The position numbers and the translations under genes were made by a program. DNA of 64,000 nt from Flavobacterium sp. HJJ (lineage in GTDB: Bacteria > Bacteroidota > Bacteroidia > Flavobacteriales > Flavobacteriaceae), in assembly GCF_015351475.1 (NCBI RefSeq), contig NZ_JADKPR010000017.1:1-64000 (forward strand), in the 5' to 3' direction. Shown piece by piece: positions 49,122 through 61,762 of this stretch (positions are counted from its first letter, which is position 1; every line of letters begins with the position of its first letter). The notes under the pieces are model-generated. The model searched no databases. It saw nothing but the letters and a program-made list of their open reading frames with translations, and had not been told where the DNA came from.

Positions 49122-49802
49122 TTATTCCGCAATTTTTTTCAGCTTCTGAATGTCTTTTAAAACAATTTTTTTACCAACCAATTCAATCAATCCAAGTTTA
49201 TTAAAATCAGATAATAAACGGATACAGCTTTCGGTTGCAGTACCGATCATACTAGCTAATTCATCTCTGGAAAGCTGAATTTTTAAGGTTTTGTCTGCAT
49301 TAGTGCCGAAAGTTTCATGTAAATAAATCAAGGTTTCTGCCAAACGTTCTTTTACCGATTTCTGAGCCATATTGACCATGTGATCATCTGCTAATCTCAA
49401 ATCACCGCAAATCGTTTTCATAACATTCATCGAAAACTGATTGTTTTTATCGAAGAAACCTAATATTTCAGCTTTTGGTATAAAGCAGACCTGCATGTCT
49501 TCTAGCGCAACGGCACTTAAGTTTGCGGGTTCATCACTTATCATAGAACGCTGACCTAGTAATTCTCCTTTGGTAACCAATTTAACAATATGATCTTTTC
49601 CGTTTGGACTCAATTTTGTTAATTTACAGATACCATCTTTGATGCAGAAAATACCATTCACATTTTCTCCTTCTTCAAAAATGTTTTCTCCTTTTTTGAT
49701 TGTTCTAGAAGTTTTACATTCTGAAATTCTTATAAGCTCGTCTTTATTTAGTGCCTTTAAAGAGCTAAATTCTCTTACGATACATTGTTCACATTTACTC
49801 AT
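49122..49802 (-). CDS. Crp/Fnr family transcription regulator
   Basis: 226 residues. The N-terminus has CEQC (Cys 4, Cys 7), then a cyclic-nucleotide-like effector domain (KKGENIFEEGENVNGIFCIKDG, HIVKLVTKGELLGQRSMI). The C-terminal helix-turn-helix reads LSRDELASMIGTATESCIRLLSDFNKLGLIEL. Further Cys at 29, 53, 59 and 105; an iron-sulfur cluster as in Fnr is possible but not proven, since the E. coli spacing is not kept. It is divergent from ccoI. Palindromes before three respiratory units suggest their control by this protein. Its own TAACTTTG box lies at 49825-49832. Confidence 0.88.
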   Translation of the reverse strand: MSKCEQCIVREFSSLKALNKDELIRISECKTSRTIKKGENIFEEGENVNGIFCIKDGICKLTKLSPNGKDHIVKLVTKGELLGQRSMISDEPANLSAVALEDMQVCFIPKAEILGFFDKNNQFSMNVMKTICGDLRLADDHMVNMAQKSVKERLAETLIYLHETFGTNADKTLKIQLSRDELASMIGTATESCIRLLSDFNKLGLIELVGKKIVLKDIQKLKKIAE

Positions 49803-49824: not shown

Positions 49825-49832
49825 CAAAGTTA
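49825..49832 (-). promoter_or_regulatory. Candidate -7 box of the Crp/Fnr gene
   Basis: On the minus strand this reads TAACTTTG, fitting TAnnTTTG, 22 nt before the ATG at 49802. The palindrome at 49842-49855 is only 9 nt upstream, overlapping the -33 zone, so the regulator may repress its own gene. Confidence 0.5.
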
Positions 49833-49841
49833 TACATTTAT

Positions 49842-49855
49842 ATGATAAATATCAT
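49842..49855. promoter_or_regulatory. Fnr-type operator upstream of ccoI
   Basis: ATGATAAATATCAT, a palindromic ATGA-N6-TCAT site in the gap between the Crp/Fnr gene and ccoI. Its end is 22 nt from GAATTTTG (49878-49885), a -7-like box with one mismatch, the same spacing as at ccoS and hemN. Function is inferred from this geometry. Confidence 0.7.
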
Positions 49856-49910
49856 TGTTGGGATACAATCAATTTTTGAATTTTGTTTGTTTAAATTACC
49901 CCCTTAATTT

Positions 49911-52289
49911 ATGGAGAATAAAAATTGCTTTCATTGTGGTTTAAGTATCGCAATAGAGGAGAAAATTGTCTTTGATGAAAAAGAATTTTGCTGCAGCGGA
50001 TGTAAAACAGTTTATGAAATTTTCAGTCTGAATGATTTGACTTGTTACTATGATTTTGAGAAGTCACCAGGAGCCACTCCGCAGGATATTAATGGTAAAT
50101 ATGATTTTTTAGATAATGAAAGTATTGTTGCTAAGTTATTAGAGTTTCAGGAAGAGCCGGCAGCTATTGTTTCGCTTAGCATTCCACATATCCATTGCAG
50201 TTCCTGTATTTGGATTTTAGAAAATTTACAGAAACTTCAAAAAGGAATAAACACTTCGCAGGTAAATTTTCCAGAAAAGAAAGTCCGAATCAATTATAAT
50301 TCATCTGATGTTTCTCTAAAAAGCATTGTTCATCTGTTGTGTTCAATAGGTTATGAACCATACATTAGTCTGGAAAATTATGAAACAGGAAAAAACAGTA
50401 TTGATAGGAGCCTCACCTATAAGCTGGGTGTTGCTTTCTTTTGCTTTGGTAATATTATGCTGCTTTCTTTTCCAGAATATTTTGAGGTAAAGGAGTATTG
50501 GCTGGATAATTACCGCCCTTTCTTCAGATGGTTAATTTTTGCGCTGTCTTTGCCATCCTTTTTATATTCGGCAAGCGGGTATTATGTTTCGGCTGTTAAA
50601 AGCATTAAATCTAAAATGCTGAATATCGACATTCCTATTGCTCTGGGAATTGTCGTGATGTTTGTACGCAGTACCTTTGATATTGTAATGGATTATGGTT
50701 CGGGTTTCTTTGATAGTTTAACCGGTTTGATTTTTTTTATGCTGTTAGGGAAAATGTTCCAAATCAAGACTTATAGTTTTCTTAGCTTCGAAAGAGATTT
50801 CAAATCGTATTTCCCAATTGCCATTACCAAAATAAACCGAGATGCCAGCGAAGAAAGTATTCCTGTTTATGAAATTGAAAAAGGCAACAGATTATTAATC
50901 CGCAACCAAGAATTAATTCCTGTGGACGGAATTTTAATATCCGATAAAGCCGAAATCGATTATAGTTTTGTCACCGGCGAAGCAGTTCCGATAACTAAGA
51001 AATCGGGAGATAAAGTTTTTGCCGGCGGAAAACAGATTGGGAAAGTTATTGAAATGGAAGTACTGCATTCAGTTTCCCAAAGTTATCTGACGCAGTTGTG
51101 GAGCAATGATGTTTTTCAGAAAAAAGTTGAGCAGCAACACAAAACGATTACAGATAGTATCAGCCGTTATTTTACGCCTATTCTTCTGCTGATAGCCTTC
51201 GCAGGATTTGGATATTGGATATTTTTTGATGCTAATACTGCTTTTAATGTTTTCACGGCGGTACTGATCGTGGCGTGTCCTTGCGCATTGGCATTGACAG
51301 TTCCTTTCACGATGGGGAATATGCTGCGGATTTTTGGAAATAAATATTTTTATCTCAAAAATGCTTTAGTGATTGAACAGCTGGCGAAAATTGATACCAT
51401 TGTTTTTGATAAAACGGGAACAATAACTACAAATTCAAAATCGAATATTTCCTATGAAGGCAAAATACTTGATGAGACCAATTTATCAATATTAAAAAGT
51501 GTTCTTCGTGCCTCTAATCATCCATTGAGCCGAATGCTGTATGATTTTCTTCCTGAAATAAAAAGACTCCAATTAGATGCCTTCGAAGAAATAACAGGAA
51601 AAGGAATTCAGGCTGTGGCCGGAGGCGTTTCTATACAAATGGGATCGGCTAATTTTATCGGTGAAAAAGGACAAAGCGAAGTGCAGCAAACTTCTGTTCA
51701 TGTAAAAATAGGAGAAGAGTATTTTGGGAAATATGTTTTTAATAATCAATACAGGGAGGGATTGTCCGATCTGTTTGAAAAATTAAGTTCGCAGTACCAG
51801 CTGAAAGTTTTGTCAGGGGATAATGAAGGAGAGCGCAGTCTGTTGGAAACAATTCTGCCAAAAGGCACCGAAATGATTTTTAATCAAAAACCAGAACAGA
51901 AACTTGAGTTTATAAAAGCTTTGCAGGATCAGGGTAAAAATGTCATGATGGTTGGCGATGGGCTGAATGATGCCGGAGCTTTGGCACAAAGTAACGTTGG
52001 TATTTCCATATCCGAAAATGTGAATGTTTTCTCTCCAGCCTGCGACGCTATATTGGATGCGAAGGAATTTAAAAAACTGCATTATTTTTTAAAATTGTCC
52101 CAAAAATCCATTTCGACGATAAAAATGAGTTTTACACTGTCTCTTTTGTACAATGTCGTTGGACTTTCGTTTGCTATCACAGGTAACCTCTTGCCGTTAG
52201 TTGCAGCAATCATTATGCCGCTGAGTACCATTACTATAGTGAGCTTTGTTACTGTAATGAGTAATTACTATTCGCGAAAAATAAAATAA
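49911..52289 (+). CDS. ccoI: Copper P-type ATPase for cbb3 oxidase assembly (CcoI/FixI)
   Basis: 792 residues. N-terminal Cys-rich zinc-finger-like part (CFHCG, FCCSGCKTVYEIF), a heavy-metal-associated domain with HCSSCIWILENL, eight membrane helices with the transport CPC (VACPCALAL), DKTGT phosphorylation site and GDGLNDAGAL. CcoI pumps copper out of the cytoplasm to supply the CuB centre of the cbb3 oxidase. It opens the oxidase cluster and faces the Crp/Fnr gene. Confidence 0.95.
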   Translation: MENKNCFHCGLSIAIEEKIVFDEKEFCCSGCKTVYEIFSLNDLTCYYDFEKSPGATPQDINGKYDFLDNESIVAKLLEFQEEPAAIVSLSIPHIHCSSCIWILENLQKLQKGINTSQVNFPEKKVRINYNSSDVSLKSIVHLLCSIGYEPYISLENYETGKNSIDRSLTYKLGVAFFCFGNIMLLSFPEYFEVKEYWLDNYRPFFRWLIFALSLPSFLYSASGYYVSAVKSIKSKMLNIDIPIALGIVVMFVRSTFDIVMDYGSGFFDSLTGLIFFMLLGKMFQIKTYSFLSFERDFKSYFPIAITKINRDASEESIPVYEIEKGNRLLIRNQELIPVDGILISDKAEIDYSFVTGEAVPITKKSGDKVFAGGKQIGKVIEMEVLHSVSQSYLTQLWSNDVFQKKVEQQHKTITDSISRYFTPILLLIAFAGFGYWIFFDANTAFNVFTAVLIVACPCALALTVPFTMGNMLRIFGNKYFYLKNALVIEQLAKIDTIVFDKTGTITTNSKSNISYEGKILDETNLSILKSVLRASNHPLSRMLYDFLPEIKRLQLDAFEEITGKGIQAVAGGVSIQMGSANFIGEKGQSEVQQTSVHVKIGEEYFGKYVFNNQYREGLSDLFEKLSSQYQLKVLSGDNEGERSLLETILPKGTEMIFNQKPEQKLEFIKALQDQGKNVMMVGDGLNDAGALAQSNVGISISENVNVFSPACDAILDAKEFKKLHYFLKLSQKSISTIKMSFTLSLLYNVVGLSFAITGNLLPLVAAIIMPLSTITIVSFVTVMSNYYSRKIK

Positions 52290-52344
52290 AACAATTACGT
52301 ATTTATGTGAATTTTTTTCATAATTTTAACATATTAGATTAAAT

Positions 52345-52358
52345 ATGATAATTGTCAT
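52345..52358. promoter_or_regulatory. Fnr-type operator upstream of ccoS-NO-Q-P
   Basis: ATGATAATTGTCAT, identical over all 14 bp to the site before hemN (61749-61762). It is 22 nt upstream of TAATTTTG at 52381-52388, so the operator centre would lie near -43, the class II activation position. Confidence 0.8.
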
Positions 52359-52380
52359 TTTTTATAAAAACGGATAAATA

Positions 52381-52388
52381 TAATTTTG
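52381..52388 (+). promoter_or_regulatory. -7 promoter box of the ccoS-NO-Q-P unit
   Basis: TAATTTTG, an exact TAnnTTTG match, 20 nt before the ccoS ATG (52409) and 22 nt past the Fnr-type palindrome. No separate -33 box is needed if the regulator activates. Confidence 0.7.
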
Positions 52389-52408
52389 TCAACTTAATAT
52401 TTAAGTTT

Positions 52409-52588
52409 ATGAGCGTTATCTATTTATTAATTGCCATTAGTATTTTTGTCGCTATTGGATTTTTCATTGCTTTTGTTTTTGCAGTAAAATCAGGTCAGTA
52501 CGATGATGATTATACTCCGTCTGTCAGAATGCTTTTTGACGATGAATTAATAAAATCTTCCCAAAATAAATCTAAAATTAAAAGCTAA
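52409..52588 (+). CDS. ccoS: cbb3 oxidase maturation protein CcoS
   Basis: 59 residues from ATG 52409 (MSVIYLLIAISIFVAIGFFIAFVFAVKSGQYDDDYTPSVRMLFDDE). A longer frame from 52352 would begin inside the operator. A single membrane helix is followed by the SGQYDD..TP..RML segment that defines CcoS. It is needed for cofactor insertion into the oxidase. Followed after 62 nt by ccoN/O. Confidence 0.9.
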   Translation: MSVIYLLIAISIFVAIGFFIAFVFAVKSGQYDDDYTPSVRMLFDDELIKSSQNKSKIKS

Positions 52589-52650
52589 ACTCCTCTTTAA
52601 TCTTTAATGGTTAAAGTCTATTTTTTACAACCTTAAAAACAATTACAAAT

Positions 52651-54828
52651 ATGGAAATGGAACAATTTTATTATGACAACAAAATTGTAAAGAAGTTCAT
52701 TTATGCGACCATACTTTTTGGAGTAGTGGGAATGTTAGTAGGTCTTATATTGGCTACGATGTTCCTTTTTCCAAATATGACCGATGGTATTTCATGGTTA
52801 AGTTTTGGAAGATTGAGACCTTTACATACCAATGCCGTAATTTTTGCCTTTGTTGGTAATGCGATGTTTGCGGGTGTTTATTATTCGCTGCAAAGGCTGT
52901 TAAAAGCCAGAATGTACAGTGATTTCTTGAGCAACCTGAATTTTTGGGGATGGCAGTTAATAATTGTCGCCGCTGCTATTTCACTTCCGTTGGGATACAC
53001 TTCCTCAAAAGAATATGCCGAATTGGAATGGCCTATTGACATTGCGATTGCTTTAATCTGGGTAGCTTTTGGGATTAACATGATTGGTACAATGCTCAAA
53101 AGAAGAGAGCGTCATTTATATGTTGCCATTTGGTTTTACTTAGCTACATTTATTACAGTTGCCGTACTTCATATTTTTAATAGTTTGGAGTTACCGATTT
53201 CTGCTATGAAAAGTTATTCTGTTTATGCAGGAGTACAGGATGCTTTGGTGCAGTGGTGGTATGGTCATAATGCAGTTGCTTTCTTCCTGACAACACCATT
53301 TTTGGGACTGATGTATTATTTTGTGCCAAAGGTTGCTAATCGTCCTGTTTATTCTTATAGATTGTCTATTATCCATTTTTGGTCGTTAATATTTTTGTAT
53401 ATCTGGGCTGGACCTCACCATTTATTATACTCAGCTTTGCCAACTTGGGCTCAGAACTTAGGAGTTGTATTCTCAGTAATGCTGATAGCTCCATCTTGGG
53501 GAGGTATGATTAACGGACTTCTTACTCTGAGAGGAGTTTGGGACAGAGTACGTGAAGAGCCGGTTTTGAAGTTTTTTGTTGTTGCAATGACAGGTTACGG
53601 GATGGCAACTTTTGAAGGACCAATGCTTTCTCTTAAAAATGTAAATGCAATAGCGCATTATACCGATTGGATTATTGCTCACGTTCACGTTGGAGCATTG
53701 GCTTGGAATGGTTTTATGGCTTTCGGTATCATTTATTGGCTGATTCCAAGGATGACAAAAACTACTTTATATTCTACTAAACTGGCTAATTTCCATTTCT
53801 GGGCTGGAACACTGGGGATTATTTTATACGCATTGCCATTATATCTAGCAGGTTTCCTTCAGGCTTCAATGTGGAAGCAGTTTAATCCTGACGGAACCTT
53901 AACTTATGGTAACTTTCTTGAAACGGTTACTCAGATTATGCCAATGTATTGGATGAGAGCTATAGGTGGATCTCTTTATTTATTAGGGATGCTTACATTA
54001 GTTTATAACATTATCCAAACAGTTAGAGCTGGTGAAGAAGTTGAGGATGAATTAGCAGAAGCTCCAGCTTTACAATCTATTAGTTCAGGAAGACTTAGAG
54101 GAGAAAAATACCATTCCTGGCTGGAAAGAAAACCAATCAAAATGGCAGTGTTCGCGACAATCGCAATATTAATTGGAGGAATTATACAGATTGTGCCAAC
54201 GATTATGGTGAAGTCTAATATACCGACAATTACAAGTGTTAAGCCTTATACACCTTTGGAACTGGAAGGGCGTGATTTATACATTCGTGAAGGCTGTGTG
54301 GGCTGTCACTCACAATCGGTTCGTCCGTTTAGAAGTGAAGTAGAGCGTTATGGACCGCAGTCCAAAGCGGGAGAATTTGTGTATGATCATCCATTTTTAT
54401 GGGGATCAAAACGTACTGGTCCCGATTTGTTAAGAGTTGGAGGAAAATATAATGACAACTGGCATTTCAATCACTTTTGGAGTCCGCAGAGTATTTCAGC
54501 TGGTTCTATTATGCCTAGCTATAAATGGCTGTTTGATAATAAAGCAATGGACATTTCAATGACCGAAAAGAAAATGAAAGCTATGGTTACCCTTGGAGTT
54601 CCTTATACCGAAGCTCAAGTTTCAAATGGATTGAAAGATTTAAGAGCACAGGCAATTGCCATTGAAGAAAGTCTAAAAAATGATCCTGATTTTGTAAAAA
54701 GTTATGAGGACAGCAAGAAAAAAGCTCTGGCAAAAGGTGAAAAATTTGTTCCAATGAACGAAAGAGAAATTGTGGCCTTGATTGCTTACATTCAAAGACT
54801 GGGAACTGATATTAAAGTGAAAGAATAA
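52651..54828 (+). CDS. ccoN/O: cbb3-type cytochrome c oxidase, fused subunits I and II
   Basis: 725 residues. The first 460 form CcoN: twelve or so helices with the heme and CuB histidines (LHTNAVIFAFVGN, WWYGHNAVAFFLTTPF, GPHHLLYSA, AHVHVGALAWNG). The last 250 form CcoO: a membrane anchor and a c-type heme in GCVGCHSQSVRPFRSEVERYG (about residue 549). CcoN and CcoO are separate in most proteobacteria; the fusion is usual in Bacteroidota. The complex reduces oxygen with high affinity and pumps protons. It stands second in the ccoS-NO-Q-P unit. Confidence 0.96.
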   Translation: MEMEQFYYDNKIVKKFIYATILFGVVGMLVGLILATMFLFPNMTDGISWLSFGRLRPLHTNAVIFAFVGNAMFAGVYYSLQRLLKARMYSDFLSNLNFWGWQLIIVAAAISLPLGYTSSKEYAELEWPIDIAIALIWVAFGINMIGTMLKRRERHLYVAIWFYLATFITVAVLHIFNSLELPISAMKSYSVYAGVQDALVQWWYGHNAVAFFLTTPFLGLMYYFVPKVANRPVYSYRLSIIHFWSLIFLYIWAGPHHLLYSALPTWAQNLGVVFSVMLIAPSWGGMINGLLTLRGVWDRVREEPVLKFFVVAMTGYGMATFEGPMLSLKNVNAIAHYTDWIIAHVHVGALAWNGFMAFGIIYWLIPRMTKTTLYSTKLANFHFWAGTLGIILYALPLYLAGFLQASMWKQFNPDGTLTYGNFLETVTQIMPMYWMRAIGGSLYLLGMLTLVYNIIQTVRAGEEVEDELAEAPALQSISSGRLRGEKYHSWLERKPIKMAVFATIAILIGGIIQIVPTIMVKSNIPTITSVKPYTPLELEGRDLYIREGCVGCHSQSVRPFRSEVERYGPQSKAGEFVYDHPFLWGSKRTGPDLLRVGGKYNDNWHFNHFWSPQSISAGSIMPSYKWLFDNKAMDISMTEKKMKAMVTLGVPYTEAQVSNGLKDLRAQAIAIEESLKNDPDFVKSYEDSKKKALAKGEKFVPMNEREIVALIAYIQRLGTDIKVKE

Positions 54829-54843
54829 TTAAAAGTAAACGTT

Positions 54844-55011
54844 ATGTTTGAGCAAATAAAACACAATATGGAAACCATTGCAGGTGTTGCCATATTTCCT
54901 ATACTATCGTTGCTGATTTTCTTTTTCTTTTTTATTGGTTTAGGACTTTGGGTTTACTCCTATAAAAAAGAAACTATAGACGAAATAAGCCAAATCCCGC
55001 TAGAAGACTAA
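54844..55011 (+). CDS. ccoQ: CcoQ-like small membrane subunit
   Basis: 55 residues (MFEQIKHNMETIAGVAIFPIL..., ending ISQIPLED), one membrane helix and a charged end, lying in the usual ccoQ place 15 nt after ccoN/O and 22 nt before ccoP. CcoQ subunits are poorly conserved in sequence; identification relies on size, topology and position. It is too short for usual frame cut-offs. Confidence 0.8.
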   Translation: MFEQIKHNMETIAGVAIFPILSLLIFFFFFIGLGLWVYSYKKETIDEISQIPLED

Positions 55012-55033
55012 TTGTACAATTTCAAAATAATAA

Positions 55034-55969
55034 ATGATGAAAAAATTAATTCCATCTTATCTAAGAGTCCTTTTTATATTTTTTGCTGCTTTTGGGCTGC
55101 TGGAATATCTAATTGATTCCGGAAATAGGCCAGCATTTATAAAATATCCTATGGTTGCTGTCTTTTTGTTTGTGCTGCTTTTCCTTTTGATTGCAATCGA
55201 AATAACATTATCAGCAGTTGATAAAATTAGTTATCTGCTGCTGTCGGCCGAAGAGAAAGAAAAGATTGCGCAGCAGGAAGCTTTGGGGACACAAGAAGAT
55301 AATTGGTATAAAAAAATAGTAAACAGTTTTACTAAATCTGCTTCTGTTGAAGATGAAAAACAATTATTGATGGACCATGATTATGACGGAATCAAGGAGC
55401 TGGATAACAATTTACCGCCATGGTGGGTATATTTATTCTACGCTTGTATTGTTTTTGCTGCAGTATATTTGGTTCGTTATGAGATTATGGGAGCTCCAGA
55501 TCAGGAAGCCGAATTGAAAGCTGAAGTAGATCAGGCCAAAATTGAAGTAGCCGAATATATGAAAACGGCACCTGATTTAATGGATGAAAAAACAGTAACT
55601 TTACTAACTGATCCTGCCGATTTGGATAAAGGAAAAGCAATTTTTCAGACTAATTGTGTGGCTTGCCACCGAGCTGATGCAGGAGGGCAGATTGGACCAA
55701 ATTTAACCGATGATCATTGGATTTTGGGTGGCGGCATCAAGAATTTATTTCACACTATAACTAATGGAGGCCGAGACGGTAAAGGGATGATTGCCTGGAA
55801 AGGTACTTTGAAACCAAAAGAAATTCAGGCGGTTGCCAGTTATGTAATTTCTTTAAGAGGAAGTAATCCGAAAGATCCAAAAGCACCAGACGGTGATATA
55901 TGGGTAGAAGACGGAGCACCGGCAGCTGCTTCTGCAGCACCTGCAGCAGACAGTACTCAAGTAAAATAA
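55034..55969 (+). CDS. ccoP: cbb3-type cytochrome c oxidase subunit III
   Basis: 311 residues. The N-terminus has two hydrophobic segments and a CcoP-type domain (ELDNNLPPWWVYLFYACIVFAAVYLV). A single c-type heme site CVACHRAD is at about residue 208, with the distal Met in GKGMIAWKG. Proteobacterial CcoP has two hemes; here one is in CcoP and one in CcoO. A start at the second ATG (55037) is equally possible. A tail rich in Ala and Pro ends the protein. A strong terminator follows. Confidence 0.93.
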   Translation: MMKKLIPSYLRVLFIFFAAFGLLEYLIDSGNRPAFIKYPMVAVFLFVLLFLLIAIEITLSAVDKISYLLLSAEEKEKIAQQEALGTQEDNWYKKIVNSFTKSASVEDEKQLLMDHDYDGIKELDNNLPPWWVYLFYACIVFAAVYLVRYEIMGAPDQEAELKAEVDQAKIEVAEYMKTAPDLMDEKTVTLLTDPADLDKGKAIFQTNCVACHRADAGGQIGPNLTDDHWILGGGIKNLFHTITNGGRDGKGMIAWKGTLKPKEIQAVASYVISLRGSNPKDPKAPDGDIWVEDGAPAAASAAPAADSTQVK

Positions 55970-55983
55970 TAATAATTTATAAA

Positions 55984-56030
55984 AAAAAAGAGCTTTGTCA
56001 AAATTCATTACTTTGAGAAAGCTCTTTTTT
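55984..56030 (+). terminator. Terminator after ccoP
   Basis: A 13-bp stem (55984-55996 with 56018-56030, AAAAAAGAGCTTT and its complement), with a further inner pairing TCAAA/TTTGA, then T-rich sequence. It is 15 nt after the ccoP stop, and only 20 nt before ccoG, so ccoG is either expressed by readthrough or has a promoter within the hairpin. Confidence 0.8.
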
Positions 56031-56049
56031 AGTATTTAAAAACAAAAAA

Positions 56050-57468
56050 ATGTCAAGTAAACTGGACGAATCTTTCAGAGATACCATCGGGACTGTCGAT
56101 AAGGAAGGCCATAGAAAATACATTTATCCCAAAAAACCATCTGGTAAGTTTTACGATTACAGAAAATGGGTCAGTTATTTTTTATTGATTGTTCTTATTG
56201 TGAATCCGTTTATAAAAATTAACGGAAACCAGTTCATGATGTTCAATGTTTTGGAACGCCGTTTTAATATTTTCAGCTTTCCTTTCTGGCCGCAGGACTT
56301 TTATATTTTTGTTCTGTTTATGGTAATTGGTGTTGTATTTGTTATTTTATTCACGGTTATTTTTGGTCGGATTTTTTGCGGATGGATTTGTCCGCAGACT
56401 ATTTTTATGGAAATGGTTTTTCGCCGGGTCGAATATTGGATAGAAGGAGATAGAGGAGCACAGATTCGATTAGAAAAGCAGGAATGGAATGCTGAAAAAA
56501 TAAGAAAGAAAGCTTTAAAATGGTCTGTTTTTCTTTTGATTTCATTTCTAATTGCCAATGTGTTTTTGGCATATCTTATCGGAAGTGACGAATTATTTCG
56601 TTTGATTGAAGATGGACCTTTGGCACATTCGAGCAGTTTTATTTCGCTATTGATTTTTACAGGAGTTTTTTATTTTGTTTTTGCCTGGTTTAGAGAACAA
56701 GTCTGTATTATTGCCTGTCCTTACGGAAGGCTTCAGGGTGTTTTATTGGATAAAAAATCAATAAACGTGGCTTATGATTTTGTTCGCGGAGAAAAAGAAG
56801 CTGGCAGAGCCAAATTTAATAAACAAGAAGACCGGGCTGCTTCGGGAAAAGGCGATTGTATCGATTGTAAACAATGTGTGCATGTTTGCCCGACAGGAAT
56901 TGATATCCGTAATGGAGTGCAGCTGGAATGTATAAACTGCACGGCCTGTATTGATGAATGCGATACTATAATGGAGGGGGTAGGATTGCCGAAAGGACTT
57001 ATCCGTTATGCTTCGGAAGATGAAATAGAAACCAAAGCTAAGTTCAAATTTACTGCCAGAATGAAAGGTTACACGGCAATTTTGGTGATATTGGTTGGTG
57101 TGCTTACTGGGTTACTATTTTTAAGAACCGAAGTAGAAGCTACTGTTTTGAGACTGCCGGGACAATTATATCAGCATAAAGGAGATAATATTAGTAACAT
57201 ATATACTTTTAAAATTATCAATAAAACCAATCATGATATCCAAGACATGAATTTTAGATTGGTTGGAATTAAGGGAACGTTGAAAGTAGTTGGTGTTCAG
57301 GAGTTAAAAGTTCCTAAGCACGGAATGTCTAGCGGAACCATGTTTATTGAGATTAACCGTTTTTTGCTGGAAAGTGACAGAACCAAATTAGAGATCGATC
57401 TTTATGAAGGTGATAAAAAAATAGAAACAACTTATACTAATTTTTTAAGTCCGAGGAGTTTTGACTAG
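56050..57468 (+). CDS. ccoG: cbb3 oxidase accessory protein CcoG (FixG)
   Basis: 472 residues with about five membrane helices. Cys-rich motifs GRIFCGWICPQTIFMEMVFR and EQVCIIACPYGRLQGVL, then a two-cluster ferredoxin domain (CIDCKQCVHVCP, LECINCTACIDECD) at about residues 272-305. The C-terminal 110 residues form an Ig-like periplasmic domain. Known CcoG/RdxA proteins reduce copper(II) for oxidase assembly. It follows ccoP across a terminator. Confidence 0.95.
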   Translation: MSSKLDESFRDTIGTVDKEGHRKYIYPKKPSGKFYDYRKWVSYFLLIVLIVNPFIKINGNQFMMFNVLERRFNIFSFPFWPQDFYIFVLFMVIGVVFVILFTVIFGRIFCGWICPQTIFMEMVFRRVEYWIEGDRGAQIRLEKQEWNAEKIRKKALKWSVFLLISFLIANVFLAYLIGSDELFRLIEDGPLAHSSSFISLLIFTGVFYFVFAWFREQVCIIACPYGRLQGVLLDKKSINVAYDFVRGEKEAGRAKFNKQEDRAASGKGDCIDCKQCVHVCPTGIDIRNGVQLECINCTACIDECDTIMEGVGLPKGLIRYASEDEIETKAKFKFTARMKGYTAILVILVGVLTGLLFLRTEVEATVLRLPGQLYQHKGDNISNIYTFKIINKTNHDIQDMNFRLVGIKGTLKVVGVQELKVPKHGMSSGTMFIEINRFLLESDRTKLEIDLYEGDKKIETTYTNFLSPRSFD

Positions 57469-57520
57469 GTTTGGCTTATTTTAAAAATAGTTATTGAAAC
57501 AATATTAAAAAAAAGTAATA

Positions 57521-57973
57521 ATGAAAATTAATTGGGGAACTTATATTGTAATTGCATTTGCATTGTTTATCAGTTTTATTATGTATTTTGTTTTAAAAGT
57601 TCAGTCCGACAGCAAGTATGATAATGACCTGGTTGTGGAAGAATATTACAAGCATGATGTTCATTTTCAGGACGAAATGGCACGTATTCAAAATGCTCAT
57701 GATTTAAAAGAAAAACCTGTAATTACTTTAGATACAAAAGGTGTAACGGTTTCTTTTCCGGCAGTTTTTTCGCCAAAGGATATCAAAGGAACAGTTGCTT
57801 TATATAGGGCTTCCAACAAGAAATTTGATTTTCAGGAACCGCTTTCGTTTACAGATTCGGCTTCGCTGTTTATACCTAAAGATAAGTTTGTTGGCGGCGA
57901 ATGGTACATTAATATGGAATGGAAATATCAAGGAAAGTCCTATCTGACCAAAGAAAAAATTTATATTAAATAG
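57521..57973 (+). CDS. ccoH: cbb3 oxidase assembly protein CcoH (FixH)
   Basis: 150 residues: one N-terminal membrane helix (GTYIVIAFALFISFIMYFVLKV), then a periplasmic beta domain with VVEEYYKHDVHFQDEMARIQNAH, the FixH hallmark, and a final GGEWYINMEWKYQGKSYLTKEKIY. CcoH is needed for stable assembly and can remain in the oxidase. Located 52 nt after ccoG as usual. Confidence 0.9.
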   Translation: MKINWGTYIVIAFALFISFIMYFVLKVQSDSKYDNDLVVEEYYKHDVHFQDEMARIQNAHDLKEKPVITLDTKGVTVSFPAVFSPKDIKGTVALYRASNKKFDFQEPLSFTDSASLFIPKDKFVGGEWYINMEWKYQGKSYLTKEKIYIK

Positions 57974-58051
57974 AATTAAGAAAATAGATAAAAGAGGATA
58001 GAATGAAGAAATTGAGGAGAACCAGATTTAGTTTTTAAATTCTTCTTCCCA

Positions 58052-58084
58052 AATCTGCAATCTAAAGTCTAAAATCTGCAATCT
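58052..58084 (+). repeat. Two copies of the 12-mer AATCTGCAATCT
   Basis: AATCTGCAATCT at 58052-58063 and again at 58073-58084, immediately upstream of the TauE/SafE-like gene. The same 12-mer occurs at 22706-22717 before the LytTR regulator. Probably part of an AT-rich intergenic repeat family; no regulatory role is proposed. Confidence 0.5.
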
Positions 58085-58093
58085 CAAATCACA

Positions 58094-58795
58094 ATGCTTT
58101 ACACCGCTTTTTTATTTGGTTTAATCAGTAGTTTTCACTGCGTAGGAATGTGCGGGCCTATCGCTATGATGCTGCCTGTGGAGCGAAATAATCCTGCCAA
58201 AAAAGTAATTCAGATTATCACATATCACTTTGGAAGGCTTACAGCTTATGGAAGTATTGGTTTACTTTTTGGGCTGTTGGGAAAAGGTTTGTTTTTGGCT
58301 GGAATACAGCAGCAGTTATCTATTTTTATTGGTGTTGTAATGATTTTGGTGATTTTAACTCCCGAAAAGATTTTTTCTAAATATAATTTTTCGAAACCCG
58401 TGTACGGCTGGATTTCAAAAATCAAGCAAAATCTGGGCAGTCATTTCAAAAATAAAAGCTTCAAATCTCTTTTTATCATCGGGCTGCTGAATGGTTTTCT
58501 GCCGTGTGGAATGGTTTATGTAGCTTTGTTTGGAGCAATAGCCATGCAGAGTGCCGGTTTTGGAGTTTTGTATATGCTGCTTTTTGGATTAGGAACAGTG
58601 CCATTGATGAGTTTAGTGGTTTATATCAATTCGTTTCTCACTGTTTCTATTCGTAATAGGATTCAAAAAGTGATTCCGTATGTGGGAGTAGCAATTGGCA
58701 TATTATTTATTTTGAGAGGACTTGGACTTGGAATTCCTTATGTTTCTCCTTCGAATATGAGTTTGTTTGTAAAGGAAAGAGCCAATTGCCATTAA
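58094..58795 (+). CDS. TauE/SafE-like membrane protein of the cbb3 cluster
   Basis: 233 residues with six membrane helices. MLYTAFLFGLISSFHCVGMCGPIAMMLPV with HCVGMCGPI is the start of the branch found in cbb3 clusters, and NGFLPCGMVYVALFGAIAM is its second repeat. Members are called sulfite exporter TauE/SafE-like; the Cys-Met residues suggest copper transfer, but this is inference. It is preceded by 120 nt and by copies of AATCTGCAATCT. Confidence 0.85.
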   Translation: MLYTAFLFGLISSFHCVGMCGPIAMMLPVERNNPAKKVIQIITYHFGRLTAYGSIGLLFGLLGKGLFLAGIQQQLSIFIGVVMILVILTPEKIFSKYNFSKPVYGWISKIKQNLGSHFKNKSFKSLFIIGLLNGFLPCGMVYVALFGAIAMQSAGFGVLYMLLFGLGTVPLMSLVVYINSFLTVSIRNRIQKVIPYVGVAIGILFILRGLGLGIPYVSPSNMSLFVKERANCH

Positions 58796-58910
58796 TTGGT
58801 TTTGCAAAAAACGTTTTCTATTTTAAAGGGATTTAGAAAATTACATTTTGTTAAATTTGACGAATAGTAAACTTTATATTCAGGCTGAAAATTGAGTTGA
58901 CTAAATATAA

Positions 58911-60083
58911 TTGAGTGAATTAGCAACCAAATTTGAGCATCTTATGAAGTCTTTTGCAGAAATTGATATTGAAAATAACGGGAATTATCTAAAATTACTT
59001 TCAGCAGTTTCAAAACTTTCGGGTCTTTTCAGCGAAAGTGCTGTTCCTTTCATTAATTATCGGGTTGCGGAGAATATTTTTTGCAGAAGTTTTAATGCTG
59101 GAAATCTTTCCCGGTCTGATACTGCTTTTGATGCCAATTATAATTCACTTGGTGTTGGTCTCAAAACTTTTGTCTGTAACAGCAATTCCAGTACCGAAAA
59201 AGTGGCAGAATTCAATTCTTTATCAAGAACTTTAAAAGATTTTAAAGGAAAAGAACTTGCTTTAAAGCTTGGTGAGTTCAGAAATGACAGAATAAATTTG
59301 GCAAATCGTGTTTATAATATTGAGAATTCCCTATATCATATTGTTGCCCGCAGAGAAAAAGAATTATTGCTTTTTGAAACCGATTATAATAGTATTGATA
59401 CTGCCAATATTCATTCAGTAAAGGATACTAAAACTAGCCTGCAGTTTGAAGACGGACATAATCTGTATACTTTCAATTATTCAAAAAGTACGCTTTTTAG
59501 AAAATTTATTATTTCGCCAAATGCCTTTCATCTGCCAATTGATATAATCGAAGATCCTTATTCTTTGCTGCTTGAATTATTTGAAGAAAATAAGAATTTA
59601 AAAACAGCTTCAGACAAATTTGTAAAAGGCGAAAATTATGTAATTCTGCCTCTTTATGGCATTCTCAAAGGGGAAAAATTCATTTTTGAAAGAAGCGGTT
59701 TAAATCAATGGAATGCGAATGGAAGAAAAAGAGATTTTGGAGAAATTTACATTCCAATCCCTGCTGAATTAAATAAAAAATATCCAGATTTCTTTCCTAA
59801 ACGGGATCAGGATTTTAATTTGCAGATTCCTACAGGTGAAATTTTTACGGCAAAAGTCTGTCAGGAAAATTCAAAAGCCTTAATGACAAATCCGAATAAA
59901 GCTTTGTCTGACTGGCTTCTCCGAAGAATTTTGCAGCTTAAGGAAGGAGAATTGGCGACAATTGAAAAACTTGATAAATTAGGTTTTGACAGTGTTATTA
60001 TTACGAAAGATGAAAATAGCGATTTCAAAATTGACATTATGAAAACGGATGCTTTCACTGAATTCAATTCCACAGCCATATAG
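58911..60083 (+). CDS. Putative orphan nuclease-like protein
   Basis: 390 residues from a TTG (58911); an ATG at 58944 would give 379. No signal or membrane helix. Residues about 70-90 read AFDANYNSLGVGLKTFVCN, where Asp and later Lys stand as in some restriction enzymes. The region near 320-360 reads IPTGEIFTAKVCQENSKALMTNPNKALSDWLL, which I associate with the B3-like DNA-recognition part of type II restriction enzymes. These are recollections of patterns, not searches. No methyltransferase adjoins it; it follows the cco cluster by 115 nt. It could equally be a conserved protein of another role. Confidence 0.6.
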   Translation: MSELATKFEHLMKSFAEIDIENNGNYLKLLSAVSKLSGLFSESAVPFINYRVAENIFCRSFNAGNLSRSDTAFDANYNSLGVGLKTFVCNSNSSTEKVAEFNSLSRTLKDFKGKELALKLGEFRNDRINLANRVYNIENSLYHIVARREKELLLFETDYNSIDTANIHSVKDTKTSLQFEDGHNLYTFNYSKSTLFRKFIISPNAFHLPIDIIEDPYSLLLELFEENKNLKTASDKFVKGENYVILPLYGILKGEKFIFERSGLNQWNANGRKRDFGEIYIPIPAELNKKYPDFFPKRDQDFNLQIPTGEIFTAKVCQENSKALMTNPNKALSDWLLRRILQLKEGELATIEKLDKLGFDSVIITKDENSDFKIDIMKTDAFTEFNSTAI

Positions 60084-60132
60084 ATTCATAAGAGCAAATA
60101 TATAAAAACTGTCTGCGGAGATTCCTTGTTTT

Positions 60133-60264
60133 GCGTGAGGGATGGCAGTGGAGCTCTTTTTTAGAGAGGCTTTTTTCGGCCTCTCTAAAAAAAGCGGGAA
60201 CGTACAGCCTGGCCTGCAGTCTCGTCTTTTTTCTGACGAGACGGAAGGACACGCCCAAAGAGCT
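60133..60264 (+). ncRNA. Structured intergenic element, possible non-coding RNA
   Basis: The segment starts GCGTGAGGGATGGCAGTGG and ends GGACACGCCC...AGCT. It can form a closing stem GCGTG/CACGC (60133-60137 with 60250-60254), a strong 14-bp hairpin (60157-60170 with 60179-60192) and an 8-bp hairpin GTCTCGTC/GACGAGAC (60219-60226 with 60235-60242). It shares an AGYGG-hairpin-AGCGG-N-AGC plan with the element at 25971-26077. I know this type as frequent in flavobacterial gaps. It lies between convergent genes, so terminator action is also possible. Confidence 0.55.
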
Positions 60265-60330
60265 TTAAAAAAAGATGAATTTAATAATTAAGATGGTACT
60301 TTAGAGGATTAATTTATCCTTATGTCTTTT

Positions 60331-61695
60331 TTAAATTGTCATTGAAAACAATGCTGTTTCTGGTGCTTTTCTTTTTAATCTTAAATCAAATGCCATACAG
60401 ATGTTGCGCACATATGGTTTTCCTTCTTCGGTCACAATGATTTTATTTTTTTCTATAACCAGCAGACCGTCAATTTCCATTTCTTTCAGCTGCATTATAA
60501 TCTCGGGGATTTCAGGAACATAATTTGCTGCATCCTCCCAGCTGGTTTCAAATTGGCACATCAGATTCAGAATGTGTTTTCTGACGATTAAATCTTCAGC
60601 AGATAATAGATGTCCTCTGTAAACAGGCAATTCGTCTGATTCCAATATTTTGTAATATTCTTCGATAGTTTTGACGTTTTGCGCAAAACTGTACCAGCTG
60701 TCGCTTATGGATGAAACACCCAGTCCAATCATCAGCTGGGTTTTTGAAGAGCTGTAACCCATAAAGTTTCGGTGCAGTTTTTTAGTATCAAATGATTTAT
60801 ACAGACTGTCAGATTTTAAGGCAAAATGATCCATGCCGATTTCGTAATATTCATTTTCAAAGAGCAGTTCTTTTCCAACTTCGTATAGTTTTCTTTTGGC
60901 ATCGTCTTTTGGAATGTCTTCGTCATGAAATCCGCGCTGTCCGTTTCCTTTTATCCACGGTACATGGGCATAACTATAGAATGCTAATCGATCAGGCTGT
61001 AGTGAATTGGTTTTTTCGATTGTATCCACTATGTTTGTAATTTCCTGAAATGGCAGGCCAAAGATTATATCATGACCGATGGAAGTATATCCTATTTTTT
61101 TTGCCCAAAAAGTAACTTTGGCCACATTATGGAAAGGCTGAATTCGGTGGATCGCTTTTTGTACTTTTTCGGAATAATCCTGAACGCCAAAACTCACTCT
61201 TCTAAAACCTAAATCATATAATTTCTGCAGATGGGCAAGAGTCGTGTTATTTGGATGTCCCTCAAAACTAAATTCATATCCTTCGGCTTTTTCGGCTTGT
61301 GAAAATATCCCGTTTATTAGGTTTTCAAGGCTTTCTATTGAGAAAAATGTAGGTGTTCCCCCGCCTAAATGAATTTCTTTAATTTTTGGTTTTTTATCTA
61401 AAATTTCACAGTAAAGTGTCCATTCTTTTAAAACTGCTTCAATATATGGGTTTTCGACATTGTGATTTTTGGTGATACGTTTATTACAGCCGCAAAATGT
61501 GCATAGACTTTCGCAGAAAGGAAGGTGAATATATAAACTGATACCCTCTGTACTGTTGCTTTCCAGAAAAGATTTTTTTAGGGTCTGAAGCCAAATTTCT
61601 TTTGTAAATCCTGACTCATCCCAATAAGGAACCGTAGGATAGCTTGTGTAACGAGGCCCAGGTACATTGTATTTTTGAATTAGTGAGGTTTTCAT
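60331..61695 (-). CDS. hemN: Oxygen-independent coproporphyrinogen III oxidase
   Basis: 454 residues, a radical SAM enzyme. The cluster motif is CESLCTFCGC at 61-70 (Cys 61, 65, 68), preceded by GISLYIHLPF. EIHLGGGTPTFFS is the SAM-binding GGGTP loop, and the C-terminal HemN domain ends LSAEDLIVRKHILNLMCQFE. It converts coproporphyrinogen III to protoporphyrinogen IX without oxygen, allowing heme synthesis in microaerobic cells. The Fnr-type palindrome and a TAATTTTG box precede it, matching the ccoS arrangement. Confidence 0.94.
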   Translation of the reverse strand: MKTSLIQKYNVPGPRYTSYPTVPYWDESGFTKEIWLQTLKKSFLESNSTEGISLYIHLPFCESLCTFCGCNKRITKNHNVENPYIEAVLKEWTLYCEILDKKPKIKEIHLGGGTPTFFSIESLENLINGIFSQAEKAEGYEFSFEGHPNNTTLAHLQKLYDLGFRRVSFGVQDYSEKVQKAIHRIQPFHNVAKVTFWAKKIGYTSIGHDIIFGLPFQEITNIVDTIEKTNSLQPDRLAFYSYAHVPWIKGNGQRGFHDEDIPKDDAKRKLYEVGKELLFENEYYEIGMDHFALKSDSLYKSFDTKKLHRNFMGYSSSKTQLMIGLGVSSISDSWYSFAQNVKTIEEYYKILESDELPVYRGHLLSAEDLIVRKHILNLMCQFETSWEDAANYVPEIPEIIMQLKEMEIDGLLVIEKNKIIVTEEGKPYVRNICMAFDLRLKRKAPETALFSMTI

Positions 61696-61718
61696 AATTT
61701 CGCATTTAATGTAAATGA

Positions 61719-61726
61719 CAAAATTA
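61719..61726 (-). promoter_or_regulatory. -7 promoter box of hemN
   Basis: On the minus strand the sequence is TAATTTTG, the same box as before ccoS, 22 nt from the identical palindrome and 23 nt upstream of the hemN ATG. Confidence 0.7.
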
Positions 61727-61748
61727 GGCTGACTTTTTAATGATTAAA

Positions 61749-61762
61749 ATGATAATTGTCAT
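61749..61762. promoter_or_regulatory. Fnr-type operator upstream of hemN
   Basis: ATGATAATTGTCAT, identical to the site upstream of ccoS at 52345-52358. The spacing to the TAATTTTG box is again 22 nt, read on the minus strand. The palindrome is near-perfect (one mismatched pair). Confidence 0.8.

Follow-up and report, generated by a model that had tools for sequence, protein, structure and literature searches.

Operators at a fixed distance from the -7 box point to a probable Crp/Fnr-type low-oxygen regulon in Flavobacterium

Genes and promoter sites at the locus

We describe here three operator-like sequences in DNA of Flavobacterium sp. HJJ, together with the Crp/Fnr-family protein that very likely acts on them. 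They lie in a stretch of 64,000 nt (assembly GCF_015351475.1, contig NZ_JADKPR010000017.1, positions 1–64,000 of the forward strand), referred to below as the window, from a 5.05-Mb draft genome in 92 contigs. The regulator gene (49122–49802, minus strand) encodes 226 residues, matches PF00027 and PF13545 above cut-off, and adjoins the first site, as an initial annotation made from the sequence alone had proposed. On the plus strand, a copper P-type ATPase gene (49911–52289; PF00122 and PF12156) that takes the name ccoI from its context is followed by ccoS (52409–52588; TIGR00847 above cut-off), a fused ccoN/ccoO gene (52651–54828; NF011053, TIGR00780 and TIGR00781 above cut-off) and a gene for a ccoP-like subunit (55034–55969; PF14715 above cut-off, TIGR00782 under its own). 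The hemN gene, for oxygen-independent coproporphyrinogen III oxidase, lies on the minus strand (60331–61695; TIGR00538 above cut-off). Family searches support the names given to all of these in the initial annotation, and of its gene names only ccoQ has to be softened to a possible assignment, for a 55-residue open reading frame (ORF) at 54844–55011 on the plus strand.

An exact search recovers the three annotated 14-mers and, downstream of each one at a distance of exactly 22 nt, a -7-type box. Operator 1, ATGATAAATATCAT (49842–49855, plus strand), precedes ccoI with the box GAATTTTG (49878–49885, plus), operator 2, ATGATAATTGTCAT (52345–52358, plus), precedes the cco operon with the box TAATTTTG (52381–52388, plus), and operator 3 (61749–61762, minus) precedes hemN, again with TAATTTTG (61719–61726, minus). 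Operators 2 and 3 had been called identical, which holds on the plus strand, where both read ATGATAATTGTCAT; along their own genes they read ATGATAATTGTCAT and ATGACAATTATCAT respectively. Two of the three boxes match the sigma-A consensus of the Bacteroidota, TAnnTTTG, and the ccoI box starts with G in place of T. In a start-site study of F. psychrophilum, TAnnTTTG boxes span positions -12 to -5 (PMC9723704). By this numbering the operator centres fall at -41.5 of the ccoI, ccoS and hemN promoters, with leaders of 16–21 nt from the predicted starts. This would be the class II position that had been suggested, at -41.5 and not at the -43 first given.

Within the window the pairing of operator and box is confined to these promoters. 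The pattern ATGAN6TCAT is found at five distinct places, the other two of which (15841 and 47497) have no KAnnTTTG box 16–28 nt away, so that the only composites in this range of spacers are the three described, each with a spacer of 22. The looser pattern ATGATN5TCAT with one mismatch is only mildly enriched: it occurs 55 times in the window, whereas shuffled sequences give 34 on average and 47 at most.

The cco cluster continues on the plus strand with ccoG (56050–57468; TIGR02745 above cut-off), ccoH (FixH; 57521–57973; PF05751 above cut-off) and a gene for a membrane protein of the DsbD_2 family (58094–58795; PF13386), which may have a cbb3-linked role. The gene at 58911–60083, between this cluster and hemN, encodes a B3-like DNA-binding domain of the NgoFVII C-terminal type (PF20731) and is a restriction-enzyme-like stray inside the respiratory locus.

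The sites in the source genome and among relatives

The composite ATGAN6TCAT-N16..28-KAnnTTTG occurs 13 times in the source genome (once for the reversed-pattern control), and the spacer is exactly 22 in nine of the 13 (binomial 5e-8 against 1/13); when the three sites of the window are set aside it is 22 in six of ten (3e-5 against 1/13). The nine include the sites before ccoI, ccoS, hemN and norCB (contig C6, position 21521; C6:21521), and one (C12:71958) before a YceI-family gene accompanied by a second gene that matches no Pfam family. Sites with one or two mismatches that retain the 22-nt spacer precede genes for a NirK-type reductase, pta-ackA, pckA, hemH, a NarK-like transporter gene, a cytochrome c gene and nadA-nadB, as well as CBS, carbonic-anhydrase-like and thioredoxin genes, and full operators with weak boxes are present at a ric-nrdD-nrdG cluster and a DUF2490-aspA pair. 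Downstream genes were viewed for 25 of the 36 matches with at most two mismatches, those at C6:5383, C19:19501 and C21:16069 included, the other 11 being on C3, C4, C5, C8, C14 and C31 and at C9:162179; target names were read by eye except where a Pfam family is given. The target at C6:28487 was first read by eye as nosZ, but its Pfam families are multicopper oxidase and cytochrome c, hence the name NirK-type.

Many of the named targets are anaerobic or microaerobic, alongside several unknown or unexpected ones; with the looser, partly chance matches set aside, the functional coherence of the remaining targets is the stronger argument. By the terms of the initial annotation, a regulon would be refuted if sites of this kind were just as numerous ahead of unrelated genes. 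The counts do not refute it: there is a strong preference for a spacer of 22, the sites are kept genus-wide, and many of the nameable targets are anaerobic or microaerobic. Its picture of a regulon for cbb3 oxidase and heme synthesis includes the right genes, but is too narrow in scope, as norCB, nirK, ric-nrdDG, narK and pta-ackA belong to the candidate set too.

The arrangement is conserved in the genus. Across 41 Flavobacterium genomes there are 192 occurrences of ATGAYN4RTCAT-N16..28-TAnnTTTG, against 22 for the reversed pattern; a spacer of 22 is seen in 130 of the former and one of the latter. The promoters of the window were followed in the DNA around the regulator gene of 80 named relatives, with the identity of the downstream gene taken from its place. 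The operator between the regulator gene and ccoI is kept in 78 of the 80, and of the 77 loci whose upstream DNA exceeds 3 kb, 73 have a 22-nt composite at the place of the ccoS promoter, 2.3–3.2 kb from the regulator start. The departure of the ccoI box from the consensus is itself conserved: of the 78 relatives, 59 have a spacer of 22 and keep AnnTTTG but start the box with G, A or C, one has T there, nine have another spacer and nine have no box, whereas the ccoS composites are found with the first T. A conserved weak box at ccoI may hold this promoter activator-dependent. On the regulator strand, the proposed -7 box TAACTTTG (49825–49832, minus) is 9 nt from operator 1, whose centre would be near -28.5 in the promoter of the regulator gene itself. 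A TAnnTTTG box lies 8–10 nt from the operator in 65 of the 78 relatives, and the operator therefore spans approximately -35 to -22 of that promoter; the overlap with its -33 zone suspected earlier is thus borne out, with feedback itself a proposal.

Forty loci of other genomes with a spacer of 22 were chosen by eye among the matches listed for the 41 genomes, as were the 14 loci of another type considered below. Their downstream genes were read by eye as hemN (three), ccoS (one), norCB (one), nirK (three), ric (two), an Rrf2 regulator (one), YceI (five), cytochromes c (two), a CBS protein (one) and a NarK-like transporter (one), plus unknowns, for the 40 loci of spacer 22. Three of these (L208, L223 and L231) have no downstream ORF, and in three others (L205, L215 and L237) the nearest reported ORF is more than 280 nt away. 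We note that YceI-family genes recur as 22-nt targets, at L141 in the source genome (by Pfam) and at L203, L218, L229, L236 and L239 (by eye).

Beyond the genus, 24 genomes were searched with spacers of 16–28, for which the reversed control gives 13 matches over all 24. Eight members of the family outside the genus that have an orthologue of the regulator hold 66 composites, and four without it hold nine. Three genomes from the family of the cysteine-free regulators discussed below (two of the three proteins read) have 19 composites, partly of another type. The perfect ATGAYN4RTCAT beside the regulator gene, found in 16 of 18 loci from the genus and family (L154–L171), is present in five of 28 more distant ones (L172–L199), and class-level genomes with a homologue are no richer in composites (seven in four) than those without (nine in five). 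The operator is a family-level trait.

Other Flavobacterium genomes contain another kind of operator, approximately ATGATTTNA(A/G)TCATAA, at the 14 loci picked by eye (L240–L253), where it lies 23 nt before TAnnTTTG in 13 and 22 nt in L251. By eye, it precedes flavohaemoglobin-like genes at L241, L242, L245 and L247, a 95-residue membrane protein gene with a truncated-haemoglobin-like gene at L240, L244, L246, L248, L250, L251 and L253, the 95-residue gene alone at L243 and L249, and an oxidoreductase-like gene at L252. It probably represents a separate regulon for nitric oxide (NO) stress.

The regulator and its conserved cysteines

The distribution of the regulator follows that of the sites. 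With an orthologue scored at E <= 1e-90 and a second match at E <= 1e-15 in the 41 Flavobacterium genomes, 34 of the 35 genomes with an orthologue hold 22-nt sites (129 in total), compared with one of the six without (one site; Fisher 5e-5, with relatedness ignored). We hold it as almost certain that a conserved and coherent regulon is real, and as very likely that the protein encoded at 49122–49802, whose closest named relative found is a Flavobacterium aquicola protein 99% identical to it, is its regulator. Another Crp/Fnr paralogue could own the sites instead, there being six PF13545 proteins in the source genome, and the chief contender is a second Fnr-like protein (C20:48973) that is the second match to the regulator model and has more FNR-like cysteines (an N-terminal CX2CX4C and a fourth Cys). 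This contender nevertheless adjoins a transporter gene resembling nitrate uptake (by eye; L145, G000:C20:46000-52000), its recognition helix differs, and ATGAN6TCAT was not found in the 6 kb around it. The orthologue, by contrast, adjoins a conserved operator that overlaps its own promoter. Moreover, 23 of the 35 genomes have no protein besides the orthologue that matches the model at E <= 1e-15, a count that leaves aside weaker Crp-family proteins, and 22 of these 23 retain 77 sites, so that the second protein appears dispensable; we give ownership by a paralogue only a very slight chance.

Several observations weigh against the assignment of these sites to one low-oxygen regulator. Among the nine 22-nt sites of the source genome, some face no obvious anaerobic gene: C13:81467 has no gene near, C33:22158 faces a gene of no Pfam family and C9:38720 one for a TPR protein, while the site at C12:51208, before a CoA-hydrolase-like gene, is poorly palindromic. 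When three mismatches are allowed there are 256 matches and 167 for the reversed pattern, so that many occur by chance and most are background. The motif ATGAYAANNRTCAT alone is found at 15 places (reversed control, seven), and at several of them, C1:278753, C4:187873 and C18:109750 for example, a box at the 22-nt distance is missing. The ccoS composite is absent in three of the 77 relatives, and has a spacer of 21 in one. A perfect 22-nt composite is also missing from G273, although this genome carries the regulator, and the rarity of the operator beside the regulator beyond the family, given above, points the same way. Finally, ccoN splits as the sites do, which speaks for the assignment: it is above cut-off in 33 of the 35 genomes with the orthologue (incomplete in the other two) and in none of the six without. 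On the other side, one of these six, G247, does have a lower-scoring homologue of ccoN (262 bits), and since loss of the regulator accompanies loss of ccoN, co-occurrence cannot fully part regulation from joint loss.

The protein belongs to the Crp/Fnr superfamily, with a beta-roll of the cyclic-nucleotide (cNMP) type and a Crp-like helix-turn-helix domain, as judged from PF00027, PF13545 and fold matches. Its best sequence match in the PDB is 2gau, with FNR of A. fischeri also matched, and the leading Foldseek matches of an AlphaFold2 model built from 21 close sequences are Crp/Fnr proteins, 2gau being 32% identical in the fold alignment; the mean predicted local distance difference test score (pLDDT) is 74.9 and the N-terminus is weak. 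The NCBIfam models for FNR are under their cut-offs (PRK11161 with 86.5 bits against 228, FnrL with 72.1 against 300). To follow individual residues we used a MAFFT alignment of 51 rows, representing 50 distinct proteins from the phylum of the window, with the window protein in twice (L150). The 50 were taken from 118 listed matches as the 30 best plus 20 of the next, mostly near full-length, such that weaker paralogues are under-represented; 15 rows are from the genus and the other 36 are 30–62% identical to the query. E. coli FNR contacts its site, TTGAT-N4-ATCAA, through E209, S212 and R213, the first and last of which are retained here, with S212 changed to Ile. The resulting E191-x2-I194-R195 helix (E in 51, I in 47 and R in 50 of the 51 rows) departs from the classical E-x2-S-R pattern, and the change from Ser to Ile fits the one-base change from TTGA to ATGA.

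The cysteines are FNR-like in part. Aligned to E. coli FNR, Cys4, Cys7 and Cys106 fall on Cys20, Cys23 and Cys122, Ser13 falls on Cys29, and Cys53 on Ala70. The classical pattern of an N-terminal CX2CX5C with a fourth cysteine in the beta-roll is therefore not present, with Ser13 at the place of Cys29, which counts against the reading proposed here; the label Fnr used in the initial annotation suits the superfamily and the probable role, but not the canonical cysteine set. By this alignment, on which the counts depend, 47 of the 51 rows (46 of 50 proteins) have Cys at each of positions 4, 7, 53 and 106. Only Cys53 is missing in two, one of which has a third N-terminal Cys near the FNR place (CX2CX4C) and the other His at 53, and none of the four is present in two. 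The simplest reading would be that Cys53 replaces the third cluster ligand of FNR, which we judge about evenly balanced. The protein's own Cys29 was dropped as a candidate for the replacement ligand: like Cys59, Cys132 and Cys193 it is invariant in 81 of 81 Flavobacterium proteins, but these four are found in only 12, 13, 17 and 17 of the 51 rows of the distant alignment respectively. We also note that the two regulators with none of the four cysteines (L198 and L199, order-level relatives) still adjoin ccoI, by eye, although the operator close by departs from the perfect form and its distance from the closest box is not 22 nt.

Sensing of oxygen through a cluster is reasonably likely. The conserved cysteines might instead bind zinc or work by thiol oxidation with no iron-sulfur cluster, to which the replacement of the third FNR cysteine and the poor N-terminus of the predicted model lend some weight. 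We consider this unlikely, given that three of the four FNR ligand positions are exactly retained, and that in the alignment the quartet is complete, wholly absent, or short of Cys53 only. A different signal is proposed if the sites serve an NO or redox sensor, a denitrification activator of the DNR/NnrR kind that also covers cbb3 oxidase, as the presence of norCB, nirK, ric and a NarK-like gene among the targets could indicate. Class III ribonucleotide reductase, pta-ackA and pckA suit low oxygen better than NO, however, and a distinct site class, mostly with the 23-nt spacer, stands before the globin genes. For two genomes (G257 and G280), moreover, just two 22-nt sites are listed; they lie on opposite strands and are separated by about 8 kb, which by position is what the cco and hemN pair would give. 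We regard an NO or redox sensor as improbable.

Proposed regulation and comparison with known systems

A model in which the three sites are operators of one Crp/Fnr activator of low-oxygen genes probably accounts for the whole, a view that we hold with good confidence. The protein encoded at 49122–49802 would bind ATGAYAAWTRTCAT centred at -41.5 when oxygen is scarce and recruit the Bacteroidota housekeeping polymerase by class II activation, with the TAnnTTTG -7 box as the other recognised signal of these promoters. Transcription of the cbb3 oxidase and its copper supply, of hemN, and probably of other heme steps would be activated, with denitrification, anaerobic ribonucleotide reduction and acetate fermentation as further targets that depend on the genome. 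The operator over the -33 zone of the regulator's own promoter would limit regulator synthesis. Oxygen, or possibly NO, is the most likely signal and would act on an iron-sulfur cluster held by Cys4, Cys7 and Cys106, with Cys53 in place of the third N-terminal Cys of FNR. The sites, their spacing and conservation, the candidate targets, the co-occurrence of the regulator and the conservation of its cysteines come from the computation itself; binding, activation, start sites, the cluster and the oxygen response are inferred from them. In F. psychrophilum, cbb3 oxidase is strongly induced under oxygen limitation and heme-biosynthesis enzymes are induced also (PMC9723704), which agrees with the predicted sites before ccoI, ccoS, hemN and hemH of the source genome. 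More broadly, the Bacteroidota may have their own oxygen-sensing form of FNR, with the third N-terminal ligand moved into the beta-roll (Cys4, Cys7, Cys53 and Cys106) and a large anaerobic regulon in the Flavobacteriaceae acting through ATGAYAAWTRTCAT at -41.5; the chances for and against this appear equal.

The control of the switch to low-oxygen life in Bacteroidota is poorly described, and an operator, its spacing, a regulator and a list of candidate targets emerge together here. Titles and abstracts among the open-literature matches listed, a scope outside which most subscription papers fall, hold no description of this regulon or cysteine set. In a meta-regulon study, carbon availability was the predicted signal for the Crp/Fnr homologue of the one Flavobacteriales genome included, and no evidence that CRP/FNR controls denitrification emerged for that group (PMC8510549). 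If a cluster is held as proposed, the FNR sensor site could be rebuilt with a ligand from another part of the fold, and loss of all four cysteines in the two ccoI-adjacent homologues of a related family would be a switch to another signal. The sites could also be used as ready-made low-oxygen promoters for Flavobacterium genetics.

The system shares features with several known regulators. E. coli FNR acts from the class II position of -41.5 on anaerobic targets, as is predicted here, and the two proteins have in common the Crp/Fnr fold, three matched cysteines, E209 and R213. The window protein differs in having Ser for Cys29, the extra conserved Cys at FNR position 70 and Ile for S212, and the operator is ATGAY-N4-RTCAT, compared with TTGAT-N4-ATCAA, with a -7 promoter of the Bacteroidota type. 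In Proteobacteria, FnrL, Anr and FixK control cbb3 oxidase, hemN and denitrification genes through one operator type, FixK without a cluster; here the same target classes are placed under one operator type in another phylum, with another promoter type and another operator. HcpR is likewise a Crp/Fnr-family protein found in this phylum, but its gingivalis cases are described as containing only hcp, and P. gingivalis HcpR senses NO through heme (PMC1274295, PMC6955866). The closest solved relative by both sequence and fold is the P. gingivalis Crp/Fnr protein 2gau, whose likeness to the regulator, as known so far, is at the protein level.

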